The notes: generated from the letters alone by a model not told the origin. Positions 42,765 through 56,953 are shown, counted from the stretch's first letter. The stretch: DNA of 64,000 nucleotides from Candidatus Poribacteria bacterium (GCA_028820845.1 JAPPII010000092.1:108571-172570); one strand, 5' to 3'. Made by a program: numbers and translations.

Positions 42765-43733
42765 ATGAAAAAAACGATTACTGTTTTTGTAATTGTCGCT
42801 GTGACCTGTCTACTCACGTGGCGATTTGTTCAGTCTGACGGGCATGAGGAATCTATGCCTGCTCTCGACGAAAACCAAGTGATTTTGGCAGAGTACAAAT
42901 GGAACGACAAAACTTATCAGATCTCGCTGGCAGATTTGAACGCCGCGATTGCAGAATTGCCGGTCTACCGGCAGCAGAACTATGACAACAGAGCGGATAA
43001 AGCCGAGTATCTTGAGGAATTAATAGAGGAACGGCTCAAAATCCTTCGTGCGACAGATGACGGATTTGATATACTTCCTGAACACCTCAAGAAACTTGAG
43101 GATTACACGCATCAACTCATGGTGGAAAAATTAACCGAGGCTGAAGTCGATGCCAAAATCGTCCATACCGACGAGGATCTCATGGCACATTATCAGGCAA
43201 ATCTCAGCGAGTACGTTGAGGAAGCAAAAGTCCGCGCAATCTGTATCACACTTGATGACGAAGACTTTGCTTATGAGACACTCGATGCCATTAAAGCCGG
43301 TAAAGACATCGTTGAGATGGCGAAGGAGCTCTCTGAAGCTGGCAAACTTGGTGCTGGACCCGGCACGAATCAGGATGATCCGGGAAATACCTATCTCTTC
43401 TCGAAGGGTGCTTCCGCGCGTTGGTCAGAATTCATTGACGCTGTTTTCGAGATGGAAGTTGGCGAACGGACGGATGCCGTCTTTGAAACCGAAGTTAACG
43501 ATGCGGTCTTTTACCTCATTTTCCGTAAAGAGGAGCACCAGCCAGAACGGCAGCAGGAATTCGAGGAAGTGAAAGATGACATCAAACGGACGGTTGAGCG
43601 TGAAAAGAAACGCGCCCGCATCAATGAATGGGTCGCCGAGATCTCTGAAAAAGGTAAATTGAAAACCTATCCTGAAAATATCCCAGAACCGCCGCAACCT
43701 GAGGAAGCGGAGACTGAGGAGTCAGACGAATAG
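42765..43733 (+). CDS. parvulin-like (PpiC) periplasmic protein 1
   Basis: A 322-aa exported or membrane-anchored protein. MKKTITVFVIVAVTCLLTW is a signal or anchor. An N-terminal helical SurA-like part follows (~35-145), then a degenerate PpiC domain (~145-265; EEAKVRAICITLDDEDFAYE, ending DAVFYLIFRKEE) and a charged C-terminus. The usual parvulin GGDLG loop is poorly kept, so it may be a chaperone rather than an active prolyl isomerase. The start at 42765 has AAGGAA upstream; a longer frame overlaps mfd without a ribosome site. It is paralogous to the next gene (both have EFxWN/EYKWN near the start and YRQQNY/YKQRQY). Confidence 0.83.
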   Translation: MKKTITVFVIVAVTCLLTWRFVQSDGHEESMPALDENQVILAEYKWNDKTYQISLADLNAAIAELPVYRQQNYDNRADKAEYLEELIEERLKILRATDDGFDILPEHLKKLEDYTHQLMVEKLTEAEVDAKIVHTDEDLMAHYQANLSEYVEEAKVRAICITLDDEDFAYETLDAIKAGKDIVEMAKELSEAGKLGAGPGTNQDDPGNTYLFSKGASARWSEFIDAVFEMEVGERTDAVFETEVNDAVFYLIFRKEEHQPERQQEFEEVKDDIKRTVEREKKRARINEWVAEISEKGKLKTYPENIPEPPQPEEAETEESDE

Positions 43734-43803: not shown

Positions 43804-44835
43804 ATGCTCACAAGAATTATCCCCTTTATCGGCAAAATGGATAGCCAGGTCCGACTTCCGGTTATCCCTCTATTTTTACTTGCGATGATTGCTATACACC
43901 CGGTTTTTTACGGTTGTAGTGACAAAGCAATCGGGGCAGATGGTACTGTCATCGCGGAATTTGAATGGAACGGTAAACAGCATATCACCTTGGAAGAGAT
44001 GCAGCAGGAGATTAGCGAGCTCCCTGAGTACAAGCAACGCCAATATCAGGACAAAGAGGGACTCGAAACCTATATGCTCCTCATGGCGGAAAGTCGCTTG
44101 ATTCTCAACCTCGCTCGCGACCAAAAACTCAATGAAGACCCCGAAATTCTCAAGAAAGTCCAAGACTATCTTCACGAGTTGATGGTTAAGCGGATTACCA
44201 CTCAGGAAGTTGACGATAAACTCACTTTGACTGAGCAGGACTATCTCGGTTACTACGAGTCGCATAAGGAAGACTATGTCCGTCCAGCACAGGTTAGGCT
44301 TATGTGTATCACTATGACCGATAAAGTGCGGGCAGATGAAACTTACGCCCAAATCCAAGAGGGCAGCGACATCGCTGAACTCGCTCAGGAACTTTCGGAT
44401 AAGGGTGAACTCGTCGGTCCCGGTGCGAATCCAGCGAGTCCGGGCGACACTGACTATATTAGTCGGGAATCTTTCCCCGCTGGAACGGAGCCTTTCTTAG
44501 ATGCAGCTTTCGCCGCAGAAATCGGAACACTGCATGATGGCGTTATCGAAGTTGATGTCCAAGGACAGAAATATTACATGATCTTCCGTAAAGATGAGGC
44601 GCGTGATGCGTATCAGAAGCCTTTTGAGGAAGAGGATGTTCGTAGAAATGTAGAGCGGAAGGTCGAGCGTGAAAAGCGGCAGGCACTTATGGATGAATGG
44701 ATCCTCCAACTCCGCGAGCGCGCTGAAGTTAAAACTTACACTGATCGCATTCCAGAGGCACCCGCTGAAGAGGAACCAACTGAGGATCAACCCGAAGCAG
44801 AGGAAGCCCCTGCTGAGGCGCAACCCGAAGAATAG
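43804..44835 (+). CDS. parvulin-like (PpiC) lipoprotein 2
   Basis: A 343-aa paralogue of the preceding protein. The hydrophobic N-terminus ends near VFYGCSD, so lipidation at that cysteine is likely (long n-region). The helical part (~45-150) and PpiC-like domain (~155-275; PAQVRLMCITMTDKVRADET, KYYMIFRKDEA) are followed by an acidic Glu/Pro/Ala-rich tail (~315-343). The GGDLG loop is again degenerate. AAGGAG lies upstream of the ATG. It probably acts on outer-membrane or exported clients alongside SurA. Confidence 0.83.
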   Translation: MLTRIIPFIGKMDSQVRLPVIPLFLLAMIAIHPVFYGCSDKAIGADGTVIAEFEWNGKQHITLEEMQQEISELPEYKQRQYQDKEGLETYMLLMAESRLILNLARDQKLNEDPEILKKVQDYLHELMVKRITTQEVDDKLTLTEQDYLGYYESHKEDYVRPAQVRLMCITMTDKVRADETYAQIQEGSDIAELAQELSDKGELVGPGANPASPGDTDYISRESFPAGTEPFLDAAFAAEIGTLHDGVIEVDVQGQKYYMIFRKDEARDAYQKPFEEEDVRRNVERKVEREKRQALMDEWILQLRERAEVKTYTDRIPEAPAEEEPTEDQPEAEEAPAEAQPEE

Positions 44836-44960
44836 CGATTAGCGAACGGTTGTTAGTTTATAGTTGTTGGTTGTTGGTTAAGAGGGTCCCTTGTGAGGAC
44901 AGATTCTTAACTAATAACCATTAACCAAGAACCCTTATTGCCTAAATAGGAGGTATGGAC

Positions 44961-46265
44961 ATGATGCGCCATGTAGGTGCCTATCTAACCATCTGTCTGC
45001 TACTCCTTACCAGTGGACTTACAAACGCGACGGCTCGTACTTTCGACAAAATCGTCGCTTATGTCAATGACGACATCGTAACCAAGCGAGAGTTGGATGT
45101 TTTAGTGAACCAGCGCGCAATTGAACTCCAGCAGGTCTACCGTTTCAGCGAACGCGAAGCCCGCAACGAGGCTGAACGACAACGAAGTGAACTCCTTGAT
45201 CGTCTTATCCGTCAGATGCTACTTCTGGAGGCGGCGTTAACATTGCAACTCACTGTCAGCGATGCTGAAGTGGAGCAGTACGTCCGAGAATTTAAAAATA
45301 GATACCAGATTGAAACCGACGAGGAATTTAAAAAACAGTTAAATAGAGAAGGCATGACAGTCGTCGCTTTTCGTGAACAGGCAGAACGGAACCTTAAAGC
45401 CGAAAAACTTGTTATGGGCAGAATTGTCCCGCGGTTGCAGGTACGAGACAGCGAGATCCGAAAGTTCTTTGAGGAAAATCAGGATCAATTGCCGGTTAAG
45501 GCGGATAAAGTCCATTTACGGCATATCTTTATCGCTTATGAACCAACCGAAATTGACCGCAATGCCGCTTATGAGAAGGCTGGAAAAGCGCGCGAAGAAA
45601 TCTTGGCAGCGGGTTCTAATTTTGAAGAGATTGCAAAACGCTATACCTCAAAGCAGAATACGACTTCACAAGCGGGTATCCTTATCGAAGCCACAACTGA
45701 AGAACTCAACAGATTTCCAGAGGTATTTCAGAACGTCTTGACGAATTTAGCAGCCGGTGAGCTGAGTGAATCGATTGAAGGGAATGAAGGACTTTACCTT
45801 TTTAAAGTCGAAACAAAAGACGATAAAATGATTGCGTTTCGCTATCTCATTGTGCCTCTCGAAATTAGTGCCGAAGCGATGCAAGTGGCACGCGAGCGAA
45901 GTGTCGAGATTTTCAAAAAATTGGAAGATGGAGAAGATTTTAGCACACTCGCCACAACTTATTCCGACGACACTGAGACGCGAGCAAACGGTGGCGACCT
46001 CGGAGTTAGATCCCTAACTGAACTCAACCCTAAAACCCGTACAATCATTGAACCGCTCGCAGCAGGGACTTACAGCAATCCACATGAAACTGAGTCTGGC
46101 GTTCACATCTTCAAAGTCGATGCGCGAAATACCCCGGACCTCACTGAAGCCGAGAAACAACAGATTACTGCGATACTCCGTCAACAGCGTTTTCAAGAAG
46201 AGTGGGACGTATACACCGACAACCTCATCTCGAACGCTTACATCCAGATCAAATTGAAAGAGTAA
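44961..46265 (+). CDS. surA: SurA-type periplasmic chaperone/prolyl isomerase
   Basis: A 434-aa SurA homologue. After a signal peptide (to about residue 25, LTNATARTFD) comes the SurA N-terminal helical domain (~25-165; IVAYVNDDIVTKREL), then two PpiC domains: ~170-290 (VHLRHIFIAY) and ~290-400 (FRYLIVPLEI ... RANGGDLGV ... GVHIFKVD). The second keeps the GGDLG loop. SurA escorts outer-membrane proteins, notably LptD, to the BAM complex. AGGAGG at 44948-44953 is 7 bases before ATG 44961; an ATG at 44955 would be only 1 base away. The next gene, LptD, starts 8 bp after the stop, matching the known SurA-LptD partnership. Confidence 0.9.
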   Translation: MMRHVGAYLTICLLLLTSGLTNATARTFDKIVAYVNDDIVTKRELDVLVNQRAIELQQVYRFSEREARNEAERQRSELLDRLIRQMLLLEAALTLQLTVSDAEVEQYVREFKNRYQIETDEEFKKQLNREGMTVVAFREQAERNLKAEKLVMGRIVPRLQVRDSEIRKFFEENQDQLPVKADKVHLRHIFIAYEPTEIDRNAAYEKAGKAREEILAAGSNFEEIAKRYTSKQNTTSQAGILIEATTEELNRFPEVFQNVLTNLAAGELSESIEGNEGLYLFKVETKDDKMIAFRYLIVPLEISAEAMQVARERSVEIFKKLEDGEDFSTLATTYSDDTETRANGGDLGVRSLTELNPKTRTIIEPLAAGTYSNPHETESGVHIFKVDARNTPDLTEAEKQQITAILRQQRFQEEWDVYTDNLISNAYIQIKLKE

Positions 46266-46272
46266 GAGATAC

Positions 46273-49200
46273 GTGAGAAAAAGCCACCCCGATCTGCCTA
46301 CCTATCACCAACACCGATGCTCCAACAAGAAACGCGTAGGTACAGGAAACGCTGTATCGCGCCGTCGTTCTATTTTTGCAGAAGCCGCTTCAATTGCGGT
46401 TATAGGCATAGGTGTTTTGGTTATTGCCTATCTCTTCTGTCCTCCACAGATGCTTATCGCCCAAGATGCCCCGCCACAGGAACAAATACCGACTGATGGG
46501 GAACAGACACCTGACACTCCAGACGAAACGCCTACTGATGGAGAACAGCCCCCTGATACCGCAGATGAAGCACCGACTGATGCGGAACAACCCCCTGATG
46601 CCACAGACGAAACGCCGACTGATGCGGAACAGCCTCCCGATGCAACGGATGAGACGGAAGCGGAAGGCGAAACTGCCTCTGAACGTTTGAATCCAGAAAC
46701 CGACGTTCCTGAGGAAGGCATGGTGATTGGTGATGGTGACAGTGTGTCGATGGTGGAGAATTTTGTTCAAATTCACGGCAACGCCCTCGTCAAATTTGAA
46801 GATGTCATCCTGCGTGCTGATCATGTCTGGGCTGACTTTGATGAAAATCTGATGCGTGCTTCTGGAAACGTTCACCTTAAGGTCGGCGACGAAGAAACCT
46901 ATTCCGATGAACTCGTCTTTAACCTTGAAACCAAAAAGGGAATCGCCAGAAATGGATTTACTTATAGCGATCCTTGGTATTTTGGCGGTAGCGAAATCTT
47001 TAAAATAGAGGAAGATAAATCTTATGTCCGTGGCGCGACCCTGACGACCTGTTCTCTGGAACATCCACACTACTATTTCAGTGTCTCTGAAGTGATTGTC
47101 CGAATGAATCAGGAACTGATTGCCAAGAACATCGTCCTGCGCATCGGCGGATTTCCCTTGTTCTACTTTCCAGCCATCCGTCGCGACTTACGCAAAGGGA
47201 AAATTGCCAAGATTATCGTCAAAGTCGGAACCGACAGCTACCAAGGACCCTACCTCAGCATTATCCAACCCCTTGTTCGTAAAAGACGCTACGATGCCGC
47301 ACTCCTTTATGACAGAAGCGCGCGGCGAGGACAAGGTTACGGGTTTGAGGGAAAGTATCGTTTTCGTGATACAAAGTATAAAGAGATACATATCGCTATT
47401 CCGGAGGATGCAACGCCGAACCAACGCACCAAATTGGAAGAGAAGGCGAACGAGTTACAAGAACGACTTGACGGTGAATATGATCGTTATTGGCTGAGGC
47501 AACTATTCCTTGAATATAAGATTACGGATGAGGATATCGCCCGCGCGAAAGAGAGTGCCGAGGAAGTCCGAACGCAGGCTTTAGAAGAAGGCACGGACTT
47601 TGCCCAACTCGCACAAAGCAACTCTGACCACTCTGACACCCGTTATGAGGGCGGCGATATAGGGTTCCTCGTTCCCGGCGAAACGGATGAAGATGGAAAT
47701 CCAAAACTCGATCCCGCTTTGGAGGCAGCCGCCTTTGCACTACAAGAAGGCGAAGTGAGTTCGATTATACAGACGGAGTCCGCTTTTCATATTCTCAAAG
47801 CCGATCGCGTGATTGACGTTTATGGCGAGCGTGAAGTCAGACTTCGCCGCATCGACATCAATATTACTGCAAGCGATGATACCGAAGCGATGCTCCGGGA
47901 ATTAGCTGACGATCTCCTACAACAGGCACATGAGGGTGAATCCTTTGAACAACTCCTACAACGCGCCGATGTTCTCTCTGACTATATCCAAGCGACGCTT
48001 TCCGAAATTAATGAAGGCAAAGGGATGCTGCTAAATGAGATGGATACCGCTTGGCAATATTCTGTTAGGCGTATGGAAAACCCGGGTGATGTTACAGAGC
48101 GTCGTCCTGTTTCTACGCCAGAAGGATTTTACATCTTCCAATTAATTGAAAAAGAGGAAACACCTACTTTTGAGGCACTCGCTGAAGAATTCGAGGCGGA
48201 ATGGGAGACTTTTTACGAAGGCATAATGAATCCAGTACCAGAGGGCAGCGAAGAAAATGGAGATGCCCCAGAGACACAAAAGACCGATGAAATGGATGTA
48301 GAAGGGACGGATGTGCCACCTACAGTTCCAGAACCGACAGAAGAAATTGAAACCAGCGATGCAGAAGAAGAAATCCAAGATGCTGAAACGACTGAACCGG
48401 AAGACCTCCAAGAAATGGAGTCTCAAGAGGAAAGTCAAGAGACGGAGGCAATTGAACCGGAAGGCGACCAAGAAGAAAGCCAAGACGCTGAAGCGATTGA
48501 ACCGGAAGGCGATCAAGACGGTGAGACAGAAGACGAAGATGTAGTCGACTCAGACGAAGAAACGGAAGAAGAAGACACGGAAGAGGGAGTCTACAGGCAA
48601 CACGACTTTCGCGGAAGGTGGGAAGACCCAAGTGCTGTCGCCTCGGAAGCGCAGAGCTTGTACGCTGGCGAACATAGCCGTCGCCCGATTAGAACACGGA
48701 GATCCTTCCGTCTTATCAAAGTCGATAGAAAGCGGGCGTATCGAGGGGATATCTACTTCTACGGCGCGGATCGCTACTCTTATGAACGACAGAACGCTAC
48801 TCGGATTGGTAGAAGCTGGATTATGCGATGGGCACATACCCAATCGTTCTTTACCCCGTGGGACAGCCGAGAAGCCGGCAGACGCCCCATCAGCTTTAAC
48901 GGTAGGACAGAGTTACGCGCCCTTAATTATAAAGAGGATTTGCAACTTCCGGGTGAATCGACGCTCAACTCTTTCGGCATACTCACCTACGGTACCGCCT
49001 TCTCTGCCTCCAGTCGAGACGATCTTGATGAGAACGGGAATCTCAGGTTTTCACGAGAAACTATTGGGGACTTCACAGGTAGGGTTGAAGTCCGCCACAT
49101 TCACGATTTCACGGGTGAGGGTACAAACTCATTGCAAAAACTCCCACAACTCACTTTGAACTTCTCACGAATGCGTGTGAATGCATTCCCACTCTTTGAA

Positions 49201-50418
49201 ACCCTCAACGATGGTATGGTATCCATTGCTGAGAAATTCAAAACGGAAACACCGTTTCTCTCAATGTTTACAGTTCCCACACTGGACAGTACGAGTCTTG
49301 ACCTGGATGTTGAACTTGGAAATTTCTTTAGAGAGGTTTATCGTGGTAAGGGCGGTGAGGAGCGGGATGTGTACCTACAGACAATGGATCTCGGATTCGA
49401 TGTCCGAAAGCAATCAACGCTTCTGATTACACCGCTCCGTGAACTCCAGCTGAGTCTCTATCTTAACACAAACGCGATTTGGCACGACCGGGATCAAAGC
49501 CAAAATAGGAACATTATACGCGGTGTTTACAGTATCAATGCAACCGCGACGAATACACTCTTCCGTATCTTTGATGTCAGTTACATCCCCGGATTGCGGA
49601 AATTGCGGCACGAGATACAATCCTCGCTCCGATTTGATTATCAGCCGCCTGTTGATGAGGACGAAAGTCTCTATCCGTTCGGACCGAGTACCTATTTCTT
49701 TGAGCGGAAGATGCTTTCCTATAACTTCAGCACAAGTTTTGAGATTAAAACCCGACGGAGCCAATCGGCGCATCGTGTTTTCTATTATGATACACGGCTT
49801 ACCGCTGATTTCACTGAATTTGACCCGTTATATAAGCGTAAATACACACCTGTTGAGAGTGATCTTACATTTGTACCTCTCCCGAGTCGAAACCTAAATG
49901 TTACCGTTCGGTTCACCCACGATCCGAATCCGCATCCGGTTGACGGACAAATTTTCAAAATGGTCGGTTTCCGTTCTAATATCCGCTATACGCGACAGAC
50001 GTGGAACGTGAGCCTTGGGAACTCCTTTAGTAAACGCCACACTTCAAGGCAAGCGTCCCGGGCAATCACTGCTACCGGACGCTACCGCCTCAGTCGAAAC
50101 CTTGAATTTGATATCAGTCTCATCTACTATCCGATTGAGCGGCAGTTTTATTCTCAGCGCATTACGATGACTCGGAATCTTCACGACTGGAATCTCCGCA
50201 TCTCATGGAACCGGATTGGTATCAAGCGACAAGACTCGGTCTACAACAACGTCCGCCAAGATTTCACATTCCAAGTTAGTCTAATTCAGGAACCTGCGAT
50301 TTCAATGGGGGTCGGCTATGACGCTACAACTGAAACTTGGGGTGTCCGCACCGTACCTGCAGGCATGCCTTACAACGCCTTCGGTACCGGGAGCTCGCTC
50401 GGTAGGTCATATTTCTAA
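46273..50418 (+). CDS. lptD: LptD-like outer-membrane LPS transporter with inserted parvulin domain
   Basis: A 1381-aa protein, far longer than usual LptD (~780-1000). It starts at GTG. A basic leader and hydrophobic segment (~37-60) direct export. Residues ~65-130 are acidic tandem repeats of about 16 residues (PTDGEQPPDTADEAP-like). The OstA/LptA-type periplasmic domain (~145-320; VQIHGNALVKFEDVILRAD, YSDELVFNLETKKG) carries the CSLEHPHYYF motif. Residues ~385-520 are a parvulin PpiC domain with canonical RYEGGDIGF and FHILKAD, followed by a second SurA-like helical segment to ~650. A Glu-rich linker (~670-772) precedes the LptD beta-barrel (~790-1381). LptD inserts LPS into the outer leaflet; here an isomerase seems built in. 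The sequence is continuous with no frameshift. Confidence 0.87.
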   Translation: MRKSHPDLPTYHQHRCSNKKRVGTGNAVSRRRSIFAEAASIAVIGIGVLVIAYLFCPPQMLIAQDAPPQEQIPTDGEQTPDTPDETPTDGEQPPDTADEAPTDAEQPPDATDETPTDAEQPPDATDETEAEGETASERLNPETDVPEEGMVIGDGDSVSMVENFVQIHGNALVKFEDVILRADHVWADFDENLMRASGNVHLKVGDEETYSDELVFNLETKKGIARNGFTYSDPWYFGGSEIFKIEEDKSYVRGATLTTCSLEHPHYYFSVSEVIVRMNQELIAKNIVLRIGGFPLFYFPAIRRDLRKGKIAKIIVKVGTDSYQGPYLSIIQPLVRKRRYDAALLYDRSARRGQGYGFEGKYRFRDTKYKEIHIAIPEDATPNQRTKLEEKANELQERLDGEYDRYWLRQLFLEYKITDEDIARAKESAEEVRTQALEEGTDFAQLAQSNSDHSDTRYEGGDIGFLVPGETDEDGNPKLDPALEAAAFALQEGEVSSIIQTESAFHILKADRVIDVYGEREVRLRRIDINITASDDTEAMLRELADDLLQQAHEGESFEQLLQRADVLSDYIQATLSEINEGKGMLLNEMDTAWQYSVRRMENPGDVTERRPVSTPEGFYIFQLIEKEETPTFEALAEEFEAEWETFYEGIMNPVPEGSEENGDAPETQKTDEMDVEGTDVPPTVPEPTEEIETSDAEEEIQDAETTEPEDLQEMESQEESQETEAIEPEGDQEESQDAEAIEPEGDQDGETEDEDVVDSDEETEEEDTEEGVYRQHDFRGRWEDPSAVASEAQSLYAGEHSRRPIRTRRSFRLIKVDRKRAYRGDIYFYGADRYSYERQNATRIGRSWIMRWAHTQSFFTPWDSREAGRRPISFNGRTELRALNYKEDLQLPGESTLNSFGILTYGTAFSASSRDDLDENGNLRFSRETIGDFTGRVEVRHIHDFTGEGTNSLQKLPQLTLNFSRMRVNAFPLFETLNDGMVSIAEKFKTETPFLSMFTVPTLDSTSLDLDVELGNFFREVYRGKGGEERDVYLQTMDLGFDVRKQSTLLITPLRELQLSLYLNTNAIWHDRDQSQNRNIIRGVYSINATATNTLFRIFDVSYIPGLRKLRHEIQSSLRFDYQPPVDEDESLYPFGPSTYFFERKMLSYNFSTSFEIKTRRSQSAHRVFYYDTRLTADFTEFDPLYKRKYTPVESDLTFVPLPSRNLNVTVRFTHDPNPHPVDGQIFKMVGFRSNIRYTRQTWNVSLGNSFSKRHTSRQASRAITATGRYRLSRNLEFDISLIYYPIERQFYSQRITMTRNLHDWNLRISWNRIGIKRQDSVYNNVRQDFTFQVSLIQEPAISMGVGYDATTETWGVRTVPAGMPYNAFGTGSSLGRSYF

Positions 50419-53575: not shown

Positions 53576-55141
53576 ATGGACGCTAACCTCGCCGAGATCG
53601 AAAATCGGCTCTGGAGTGCCGCCGATGAACTCAGAGCCAATTCACGCCTCCGCGCCTCAGAATACTCTACACCCGTACTTGGGCTAATCTTTTTGAGATA
53701 CGCCGATCATAAATTCACACAAGTCGCACAAGCGATTGGCAGCGAAACCGCTGCGGGTAAGCGAAGTAGAACGGATCCGCGAACGCAGTATCAAGCGCGC
53801 GGCGCATTTTACCTACCCGATACCGCACGATTTCAATACCTCCTCAATCTGCCGGAGAGTGAAAACATCGGACAAGCGATCACTGACGCGATGAAGGCAA
53901 TTGAAGCAGAAAATCCGCAGGTCAACGGAGTCCTGCCTAAGACTTACAATCGCCTTGAAAAAAGTACACTCCTTGAACTCCTACGCATCATGGAACAGAT
54001 TCCCATGGATATTGAGGGAGATGCCTTCGGAAAAGTCTACGAGTACTTTCTCGGCAATTTCGCCATGAGCGAAGGACAGCGCGGGGGTGAATTCTTCACG
54101 CCTACCTCCCTCGTGAAACTTATCGTTGAGGTTATCCAACCCTTTCACGGTCGTATTCTCGATCCCGCATGCGGTTCCGGTGGCATGTTCGTCCAGAGTG
54201 CAGCGTTCATCCGCAACCATCAGCAAAACGGAAAGCAAGGACAAATCAGTATTCACGGGGTAGAGCGCGTCGCCGAAACGATTCGATTGTGTAAGATGAA
54301 CCTCGCTGTCCATGCGCTTGAAGGTGATGTCAAACAGGCAAATAGTTACTACGAAGATCCACATAACTGTTTGGATAGGTTCGATTTCGTCATGGCAAAT
54401 CCGCCTTTCAATGTCGATCGCGTGGATAGGGAACGCATCAAAGACGATCCTCGGTTCCCTTTCGGCATGCCTCGTGTCGATAACGCCAATTACGTCTGGA
54501 TTCAGTTATTCTATAGCTCGCTTTCCGAGTCTGGACGGGCAGGCTTTGTCATGGCAAACTCCGCCGCCGATGCCCGCGCCTCTGAACTCGACATCCGCCG
54601 TCAAATTATCGAATCCGGTGCAGTCGATATCATTGTTAGCATCGCCTCAAACTTCTTTTATACGGTCACCTTGCCCTGTACCCTCTGGTTTTTCGACAAA
54701 TCTAAACGCCATACCGATAGACACGATAAAGTGCTATTTATTGATGCGCGACACCTCTATCAACAGGTGAGTCGCGCCCATCGGCAGTTCACACCCAAGC
54801 AACTCGAATTCCTGTCTAATATTGTCAGACTTTATCGGAGTGAATCCCCTGAAAACCGACACGACAGTGCAGATTTCCTCACGACGAAATTCCCTGATGC
54901 AGCATACATTGATGTTCCCGGACTTTGTAAGGTCTCCACGGTTGCCGAAATTGAAGCACAAGGGTGGAGTCTCAACCCTGGACGTTATGTCGGTGTTGCC
55001 GAACAGCGCGCAGACGATTTTGACTTCACCGAGCGGTTTACAGAACTCAATGAGGAATTAGCAGTTCTGAACGCGGAAGCACATCAACTCGAAGAACGCA
55101 TCGCTGAAAATGTTGTAAAGATTCTGGAGGATACGGTATAA
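53576..55141 (+). CDS. hsdM: type I restriction-modification DNA methyltransferase HsdM
   Basis: HsdM (521 aa) is the adenine methyltransferase subunit of a type I RM system. The N12-type helical domain spans ~1-140. The SAM-binding motif [10 protein letters not shown] is near 196 and the catalytic NPPF near 274. The C-terminal helical part contacts HsdS. AAGGAAA precedes the ATG. It heads the hsdM-hsdS-...-hsdR island and needs HsdS for sequence specificity. Confidence 0.96.
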
Positions 55142-55256: not shown

Positions 55257-55589
55257 ATGATTCAAATTTCTGAACCGATAACTCTCGAAAAACTATTGCC
55301 ACTAATACAAAAACTACCGAAAATTGAGCGCGAGCGACTCCGTGAATCCCTTGAAAAGGAATCACAACTTGATGCCGCGATTTTGCTCTATCAAGAAGAT
55401 CAGGTAACGCTCGGGAGAGCTGCTGAGTTGGCTGGCATCCATCGTTTTGAGTTTGAAGAGGCTTTGGCAGCAAAAGGTATTTTGAAAATTGTTGAAGTGG
55501 ATTCAGCAGAAACACTGAAAACGCGGATTGCCCCCATCAAACGCCTCCACAAATCAAAAAGGGATAAGAGAAGATCGCACGAACTATGA
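55257..55589 (+). CDS. UPF0175-like antitoxin/HTH protein
   Basis: A 110-aa protein with a UPF0175-type central region (AILLYQEDQVTLGRAAELAG through FEFEEALAAKGI), which in other bacteria belongs to small DNA-binding antitoxin-like proteins usually paired with a PIN toxin. No PIN gene follows; instead the stop codon overlaps the ATG of the chimeric hsdS gene (ATGA, 55586-55589). The N-terminal third (EKLLPLIQKLPKIERERLRE) and basic C-terminus are less typical. It may regulate the restriction operon or be a remnant of a toxin-antitoxin locus. Confidence 0.78.
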   Translation: MIQISEPITLEKLLPLIQKLPKIERERLRESLEKESQLDAAILLYQEDQVTLGRAAELAGIHRFEFEEALAAKGILKIVEVDSAETLKTRIAPIKRLHKSKRDKRRSHEL

Positions 55590-56953
55590 AAATAAAAAAT
55601 AAAAAGCGAGATCCAATGCCACCTCCCGAGGCTACTCCAGAGGAGATCGGAAAATTTTGGGACACACATAGCCTTGCTGATTATTGGGATGAAACCCACG
55701 AAGTGAAATTTCAAGTCACGCTAAACATCCAGAAACAAAAAGACATCATGAGAGATACAATTCGTTTTGGTGATTTCGTTGAGATTAATCCACGCATCCA
55801 ATTGGAAAAAGGCAGAGAATATCCTTATGTTGAAATGGCTGATGTTAGCCCTGGCAACGCTTTTGTTTTCCCTGAAAAACAACGTACTTACAAAGGTGGC
55901 GGCTCACGATTCCAAGCTGGAGACACGCTTTTTGCCCGCATTACACCGTGTTTAGAAAATGGAAAAATCGTCAGACTCAAAAATACCGGTAATCAACCCT
56001 GTTTTGGATCTACAGAGTTCTTCGTCTTTCGTGGCAAGCCCAATGTGTCAGATCCAACGTATATTTTCTATCTGGCTCTGAGCCCTACAATTCGGGATCC
56101 TGCAGTAAAGAGTATGACGGGTGCTTCAGGACGACAGCGCGCTATTTTATCCTCGGTTGAAAATATTCTAATTCCGCTGCTGCCTCTCTCAACCCAACGC
56201 AAAATCGCCGCTATCCTCTCCGCCTACGACGACCTCATCGAAAACAACACCCGCCGTATCAAAATCCTTGAAGACATGGCACAGACCCTTTACCGAGAAT
56301 GGTTCGTCCACTTCCTATTTCCCGGACATGCGGATGTGCCGATGGTGGAATCGCCGTTGGGTCCGATACCGGAAGGGTGGAAGGTTAAGAATTTCGGCGA
56401 AGTCTCTCTTAACTTTGATCGCCAGCGTAAACCGTTATCAGGAAAAGTAAGGTCAACAATGCAAGGGGAATATCCATATTATGGTGCTGCTAAAGTTTTG
56501 GACCATATTAATGATTATCTATTTGATGGAAGGTATTTATTGATTGGAGAAGATGGTAGCGTTGTTACTGAACACGGAAAACCTGTGCTACAATTAGTAA
56601 CCGGTAAATTCTGGGTAAACAATCATACGCACGTTGTTCAAGGGAAAGCACCAATCTCAACAAACTTCCTTTACTTGTTTATGTCTAATGTAGTTATTTC
56701 GGGCCATGTTACAGGCACCGCACAGCCAAAGATTAACCAGCAGAACTTAAACAGAATTCCTGTCATTTCGCCTCCACAGAGTGTGTTGGAAAAATTTAAC
56801 CAGATGATTGAACCAAATTTTAACAACATCGTTGCCTTAAACCTTAAAAACGTTAACCTTCAACAAACCCGCGACCTCCTCCTCCCCAAACTCATCTCTG
56901 GCGAGATTGACGTATCCAAACTTGATATTGAGACTGATCCCAAAAGCAATTGA
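55586..56953 (+). CDS. hsdS: type I RM specificity subunit HsdS with antitoxin-like N-terminus
   Basis: A 455-aa HsdS. Two target-recognition domains (~58-200 and ~255-400) are separated by helical spacers (~200-245 and ~400-440) and determine the DNA site; the motif LPLSTQRKIAAILSAYDDLI ends the first. Residues ~10-50 (ATPEEIGKFWDTHSLADYWD) do not belong to HsdS but match the N-terminus of CopG-type antitoxins. Normal HsdS would begin near M55 (55748), before which no ribosome site is seen. The only good start is 55586, overlapping the UPF0175-like gene. So an antitoxin 5' end appears fused in frame to hsdS. Confidence 0.88.
   Translation: MKIKNKKRDPMPPPEATPEEIGKFWDTHSLADYWDETHEVKFQVTLNIQKQKDIMRDTIRFGDFVEINPRIQLEKGREYPYVEMADVSPGNAFVFPEKQRTYKGGGSRFQAGDTLFARITPCLENGKIVRLKNTGNQPCFGSTEFFVFRGKPNVSDPTYIFYLALSPTIRDPAVKSMTGASGRQRAILSSVENILIPLLPLSTQRKIAAILSAYDDLIENNTRRIKILEDMAQTLYREWFVHFLFPGHADVPMVESPLGPIPEGWKVKNFGEVSLNFDRQRKPLSGKVRSTMQGEYPYYGAAKVLDHINDYLFDGRYLLIGEDGSVVTEHGKPVLQLVTGKFWVNNHTHVVQGKAPISTNFLYLFMSNVVISGHVTGTAQPKINQQNLNRIPVISPPQSVLEKFNQMIEPNFNNIVALNLKNVNLQQTRDLLLPKLISGEIDVSKLDIETDPKSN

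Follow-up and report, generated by a model that had tools for sequence, protein, structure and literature searches.

LptD and the parvulins are textbook protein families, and in E. coli LptD is an essential, slow-folding protein that depends on SurA, the barrel assembly machinery (BAM), LptE, LptM and disulfide rearrangement. What does it mean when a parvulin is found inside the reading frame of LptD itself? The question is raised by a DNA stretch of 64,000 nucleotides (the window; GCA_028820845.1, JAPPII010000092.1:108571-172570) from a member of Candidatus Poribacteria, a sponge-associated bacterial phylum, in which the uninterrupted open reading frame (ORF) at positions 46273-50418 (+) had been read, in an earlier note made from the sequence alone, as an LptD with one parvulin domain built in. 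The protein encoded by this ORF is here called the focal LptD. Predicted structures and sequence comparison indicate that the insert lies inside the barrel wall, in the periplasmic turn between strands b4 and b5 beside the lateral gate, and that it consists of three parvulins, two of which (P1 and P2) are nested inside a split outer parvulin, in turn built into the barrel hairpin. The fusion is a stable lineage trait throughout Poribacteria. What is new is the architecture, i.e., a SurA-like module of several domains housed in a turn of the barrel and fixed in a phylum; a literature search, which left most subscription papers outside its scope, found no report of an LptD-parvulin fusion and no paper treating both LptD and Poribacteria.

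Identity of the protein and position of the insert

Recognition of the protein as an LptD needed profiles, intermediates and structure, since Pfam and NCBIfam fail on the protein alone: the Pfam LptD model (PF04453) has no match in it, and NCBIfam gives a weak chlamydial LptD-like match and nothing else. A profile of 43 homologues (A1, the source of all counts out of 43 given below) aligned at E=1.6e-40 (hhalign) with single-domain proteins of 660-760 amino acids (aa) from other phyla, which in turn aligned with E. coli LptD at E=1e-13, and one of these outgroup proteins (L124) matches PF04453; the direct alignment of the A1 family with E. coli LptD was weak. One homologue (L101) also matches Pfam LptD_2 above the cut-off, and the C-terminal part of the focal family matches other LptDs. 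AlphaFold2 (AF2) models of the focal LptD (aa 186-1381, predicted local distance difference test (pLDDT) 74) and of a diverged homologue (L063, pLDDT 78) show an LptD-type barrel with an N-terminal jellyroll, and their best Foldseek matches in the PDB are all LptD (E=5e-15 and 5e-17, respectively), followed by parvulin chaperones such as 2pv1 (SurA P1; template modelling score 0.76 by target length). By its predicted fold and by the chain of sequences leading to E. coli LptD the ORF encodes an LptD, as had been proposed. Like LptD of E. coli (PDB 4q35, 5iv9, 8h1r) it has a jellyroll, a barrel of ~26 strands and the TTC region, and it occurs in single copy, being the sole LptD detected in its own genome, where neither a second, insert-free LptD nor a second LptD N-terminal part was found when sought. 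The same genome encodes LpxC and LptF/LptG, and export of lipopolysaccharide (LPS) is its putative function.

The earlier note had placed the parvulin between the OstA-like periplasmic domain and the barrel. This placement proved wrong because of the end of the alignment, the strand count, the parity of the turns and the continuity of strands in the models. The alignment to insert-free LptDs (the hhalign match at E=1.6e-40) spans the jellyroll and four barrel strands and ends at aa 367, and counted along the alignment of the outgroup proteins with E. coli LptD (E=1e-13) the insertion point corresponds to residues ~279-285 of E. coli LptD, between b4 and b5. The count in E. coli agrees with the published positions of Gly227 in b1 and Tyr248 in b2 (PMC12644819). 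As the b24-b25 turn of LptD is periplasmic (PMC12644819), the b4-b5 turn, i.e., T2 in the naming of the periplasmic turns as T1-T12 (PMC4353691), should by parity be periplasmic too. In both AF2 models b4 and the first parvulin strand form one unbroken strand (model residues 168-190), and b5 is likewise a direct continuation of the last parvulin strand (model residues 626-650 in the focal LptD, 487-511 in L063), with the rest of the barrel following after the insert. An extracellular insert after b5 was also considered and rejected, as the end point, the strand count and the strand continuity all put it after b4 and on the periplasmic side. Periplasmic turns are usually of 2-5 residues (PMC13067283). 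T2 comprises only a few residues in other LptDs, whereas in the focal LptD it holds an insert of ~400 residues.

Anatomy, active sites and selection

The presence of a good PpiC domain in the LptD frame, as first noticed, is borne out by Pfam (Rotamase PF00639 at aa 418-511, E=1.2e-23) as well as by AF2 and Foldseek. Taken as separate pieces, P1 (aa 402-516) matches Rotamase with 67.7 bits (E=1.8e-18) and P2 (aa 516-634) matches Rotamase_3 with 25.4 bits (E=2.3e-5), both above the cut-off, so that a chance match is excluded. P2 is canonical in the relatives L063 and L101. In homologues free of the linker described below, the order of elements is b1-a1, whole P1, whole P2 and then a2-a3-b2-a4-b3-b4. 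The C half of the outer domain alone matches Rotamase with 41.3 bits in L063, 45.0 bits in L062 and 56.9 bits in L061, and joining the N half to it raises these scores to 53.1, 61.1 and 74.8 bits, respectively. As this gain of 12-18 bits results in a complete Rotamase match, P1 and P2 are nested in a split outer parvulin; in both L061 and L063 Pfam by itself finds three stretches that match parvulin. The single built-in parvulin of the earlier note thus becomes three, and four in a second class of Poribacteria (see below), and the "further SurA-like segment" it described after the PpiC domain represents the second parvulin together with one half of the third, the other half of which precedes P1.

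The Glu-rich linker reported after these domains is disordered in the AF2 model. It is fast-evolving, and among Poribacteria the region that aligns with aa 646-795 varies in length between 29 and 204 residues, a range which marks the acidic linker as a later, lineage-specific embellishment. A separate, independent expansion of ~60 residues rich in Ala, Pro and Glu is found within P1 of L102. The N-terminus of the focal LptD has a signal sequence (by eye) followed by Pro/Glu/Asp-rich repeats at aa ~70-140.

A complete parvulin active site (double His, Asp/Cys and hydrophobic pocket) was found in none of P1, P2 and the outer domain. Conserved in P1 are Asp452 and Phe488 (38/43 each), His506 (35/43, missing in the other 8) and Gly461 and Gly464. 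The first-strand His position is occupied by Gln410 in 34 of the 43 sequences and otherwise by Arg or Glu, and in no sequence by His. In P2 of the focal LptD the GGDxG motif is lost. Isomerase activity is uncertain because one histidine of the usual active-site pair is missing from P1; P1 alone is a possible candidate for it, not an assured one, and peptide binding by the module would be the safer guess. The ratio of non-synonymous to synonymous substitution rates (dN/dS), calculated per segment for six pairs of relatives, was 0.10-0.21 for P1, 0.06-0.12 for P2 and 0.00-0.23 for the short and noisy outer halves, with 0.04-0.08 for the barrel and 0.13-0.38 for the acidic linker. Since dN/dS of the folded parts is low (mostly 0.02-0.2) and near that of the barrel, the insert is under purifying selection.

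Distribution and origin of the fusion

Of 85 Poribacteria genomes 82 carry the fusion, among them all 56 of high quality, the three genomes without a strong match having completeness of 78, 81, and 90%. It extends to the second class of the phylum, at identities down to 34%. The concern, raised at the outset, that an assembly or gene-calling artefact had joined lptD to a parvulin gene could point to the data being mostly metagenome-assembled genomes and to a few split members, i.e., G058 in two frames, G060 over two contigs and G067 with an in-frame TGA. However, dozens of assemblies made independently show this fusion in a single frame, several of them on one contig (single-contig genomes include G005, G010, G022, G029, G044, and G082), which excludes an assembly fusion, and with the purifying selection on the insert the probability of an artefact is practically nil. 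Outside the phylum, the sample comprised ~240 non-Poribacteria genomes (~200 of other families and ~40 further), and none of the matches listed for these showed an LptD-parvulin fusion, each covering either the N-terminal part of LptD or a separate parvulin gene; with the best candidate places alone scored, restriction to Poribacteria applies to the genomes sampled here. Two LptDs of 1074-1090 aa, L135 (G189) and L134 (G093), were checked as possible fusions and had no parvulin match. Their jellyroll match begins at aa ~410-510 after a long preceding region, and they represent another enlargement of LptD.

Three parvulin-type genes lie upstream of lptD (Table 1), just as the earlier note had listed them, except that the last of these begins at 44955 rather than 44961 and that 7 bases, not 8, separate its stop (46265) from the start of lptD. 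The position of lptD at the end of a parvulin operon also holds: the order mfd-ppiA-ppiB-surA-lptD is kept across the main class, and the second class has mfd-ppiB-surA-lptD. The pair of Rotamase_2 genes ppiA and ppiB between mfd and surA is conserved in most of the phylum, some families (L060, L064, L066-L068) having one ppi gene of 650-740 aa in its place. Promoter and terminator scans gave nothing above chance level. Farther downstream in the window are genes for the type I restriction-modification proteins HsdM (53576-55141) and HsdS (55586-56953; both by Pfam), preceded by two short-chain dehydrogenases and a gene of the 2'-5' RNA ligase family.

Table 1. Parvulin-type genes of the operon, lptD and the predicted parts of its product; positions are counted in the window.
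Feature	Position	Strand	Residues (aa)	Basis and remarks
ppiA, parvulin-family	42765..43733	+		Pfam Rotamase_2
ppiB, parvulin-family	43804..44835	+		Pfam Rotamase_2 and weak Rotamase_3 match
surA, separate gene	44955..46265	+		Pfam SurA_N and two rotamase domains
lptD with parvulin insert	46273..50418	+	1381 in all	GTG start
LptD periplasmic jellyroll / beta-taco	46720..47187	+	~150-305	AF2 strands; hhalign E=1.6e-40; TTC motif
Barrel strands b1-b4, adjoining lateral gate	47215..47370	+	315-366	AF2, hhalign
Outer parvulin, N half (b1-a1)	47371..47475	+	367-401	Continues b4; boosts joined Rotamase score
Parvulin P1, best conserved parvulin	47476..47820	+	402-516	Rotamase E=1.8e-18; active-site columns
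Parvulin P2, degenerate in this genus	47821..48162	+	517-630	Rotamase_3 E=2.3e-5
Outer parvulin, helix a2 region	48163..48240	+	631-656	AF2 H448-467; conserved TPTFEELA motif
Glu/Asp-rich disordered linker inside outer parvulin	48241..48582	+	657-770	pLDDT ~27
Outer parvulin, C half, last strand continues into b5	48583..48738	+	771-822	AF2; Rotamase joining test
Remaining barrel, b5 to C-terminal strand	48739..50415	+	823-1381	AF2, Foldseek, C-terminal matches to LptDs

The insert resembles E. coli SurA (PDB 1m5y; P1 2pv1) in the tandem arrangement and the order of P1 and P2 (profile match E=6e-15), and a tree of single domains pairs its P1 and P2 with P1 and P2, respectively, of Poribacterial SurA. 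On the other hand it has no SurA N-domain (core), which sets it apart from SurA proper and from the gene at 44955 with its SurA_N domain, it is covalently part of a barrel and nested in a third, split parvulin, and the adjacent gene encodes a full SurA. The two-parvulin peptidyl-prolyl isomerase (PPIase) 8hm4/8hm3 and PpiD-YfgM (8zht), both found by Foldseek, are likewise multi-parvulin periplasmic folding factors; unlike the insert they are free-standing or anchored in the inner membrane and have no outer-membrane barrel. The domain tree, which with 106 columns is suggestive and not proof, places SurA P1 of two second-class genomes within the clade of LptD P1 (support 98/88) and groups LptD P2 with SurA P2 of the same two genomes (92/84 and 91/92), while the outer domain forms a clade of its own (100/98). 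The simplest reading would be that the P1-P2 pair was copied from the adjacent surA into a parvulin already within lptD. The second class (G060, G061) has a fourth parvulin in another barrel turn, predicted to be b10-b11 and periplasmic by parity (aa ~766-879 of L101 from G061, aa ~263-378 of L133 from G060, equivalent to aa ~995 of the focal LptD); at this site the focal lineage has a helix alone (aa 973-988). Because of this extra parvulin, insertion into LptD has probably occurred at least twice. Free-standing proteins of 607-647 aa outside Poribacteria (L126, L127, and L128) carry a parvulin run that aligns with P1, P2 and the outer C half in that order, and they are possible models for the ancestor of the inserted module.

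Possible functions of the module

The focal LptD further differs from other LptDs in its interdomain cysteines, and LptE was not found in its genome. The TTC motif of the jellyroll is kept (LTTCSL, aa 257-262; Cys260 in 37/43), while the barrel-side LHCW has become LHDW (RNLHDW, aa 1301-1306) and the position is non-Cys in 42 of the 43 aligned sequences, so that the focal LptD is without an interdomain pair of the C173-C725 type. The barrel-side Cys (LHC motif) is conserved in eight outgroup LptDs, and in the second class L101 keeps both cysteines and G060 the LHCW. To our knowledge the pair is not universal among LptDs, and its loss therefore bears on mechanism and not on LptD membership. In E. 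coli LptD the jellyroll is tethered by disulfides to the turn between b24 and b25 (PMC12644819).

In E. coli, outer-membrane proteins (OMPs) are brought to BAM by SurA, and less LptD is present when SurA is missing (PMC11366764); the assembly of LptD is a slow process of ~20 min (PMC13067283). Sequence and models show, in place of T2, an outer parvulin that continues the barrel hairpin and has a SurA-type P1-P2 pair nested within it. The module would therefore hang in the periplasm under b1-b5, with the lateral gate and the jellyroll at its side. OMP strands enter BAM with the C-terminal end first, so b1-b5 come late. It is plausible, from this anatomy, that the module assists folding or gating of LptD, as had been suggested. 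We consider the chances evenly balanced that it serves as an in-cis SurA-like clamp during LptD assembly and then as a brace at the jellyroll-barrel junction. In such a mechanism the module would bind extended LptD segments in cis, as a SurA-like peptide-binding clamp, and keep the jellyroll and the N-terminal strands, which insert late, in register during slow BAM-assisted folding; once assembly is complete it would persist at the junction near the gate as a brace, in a lineage without detected LptE and, in the main class, without the barrel-side Cys. Prolyl isomerisation by P1 may contribute and would not be required.

Several points weigh against this proposal. The genome retains a separate SurA, so the insert is no simple SurA replacement, and it lacks the core, to which most chaperone activity of E. 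coli SurA is attributed. Few active-site residues survive in P2 and the outer domain, and P1 is short of one of the usual pair of histidines. The AF2 models have a predicted template modelling score of just 0.54-0.57, and the placement of the domains relative to the barrel is uncertain. The Pfam LptE model has no match in the focal genome, where an LptE too diverged for it is possible. The Cys loss is younger than the insert, since the second class has insert and Cys pair together; that the insert is the older of the two is a correlation that would follow if the module had removed the need for the disulfide. Finally, the in-cis chaperone is proposed from sequences and predicted models.

The same losses suit a module that is purely structural, its parvulin folds bracing the jellyroll-barrel junction or gate and standing in for the disulfide and LptE/LptM with no chaperone or isomerase action: active sites are gone from P2 and the outer domain and in part from P1, LptE is unmatched, the barrel-side Cys is lost in the main class, and the outer parvulin strands are continuous with those of the barrel. 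Such a static brace, the main rival reading, is nevertheless less likely, as most P1 ligand-site residues are kept in most sequences, three complete folds are retained with no shrinkage, and another class has gained a fourth parvulin. The three additional parvulin genes in the operon and the similarity to SurA P1 could instead point to action in trans, where the module would hold other clients (OMPs, surface lipoproteins) or dock SurA/BAM near the LPS exit and so couple OMP and LPS delivery, but LptD is normally a low-copy protein and as such a poor site for a general chaperone, and nothing here supports client binding, which makes this improbable. That P1 isomerises specific LptD prolines in cis and is required in this way for folding would agree with the retention of Asp452, Phe488 and His506 in most P1 sequences; with Gln, Arg or Glu for the first-strand His in 43/43 and His506 missing in 8/43, it is very improbable. 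The in-cis clamp that becomes a brace is preferred on this evidence.

It is tempting to go further and regard Poribacterial LptD as self-chaperoned, SurA-derived parvulins having entered periplasmic turns at least twice (T2 phylum-wide and a second turn in one class), joined the barrel hairpin and taken over steps of LptE, LptM, disulfide rearrangement and free SurA, although we hold this only tentatively. The role of the PPIase domains of SurA is debated, and the fusion bears on what these domains do, as it does on how an outer-membrane barrel with a folded insert of this size in a periplasmic turn gets assembled. An entire phylum whose LptD bears parvulins in the barrel wall, next to the lateral gate, offers a natural experiment on the helpers required by the translocon.

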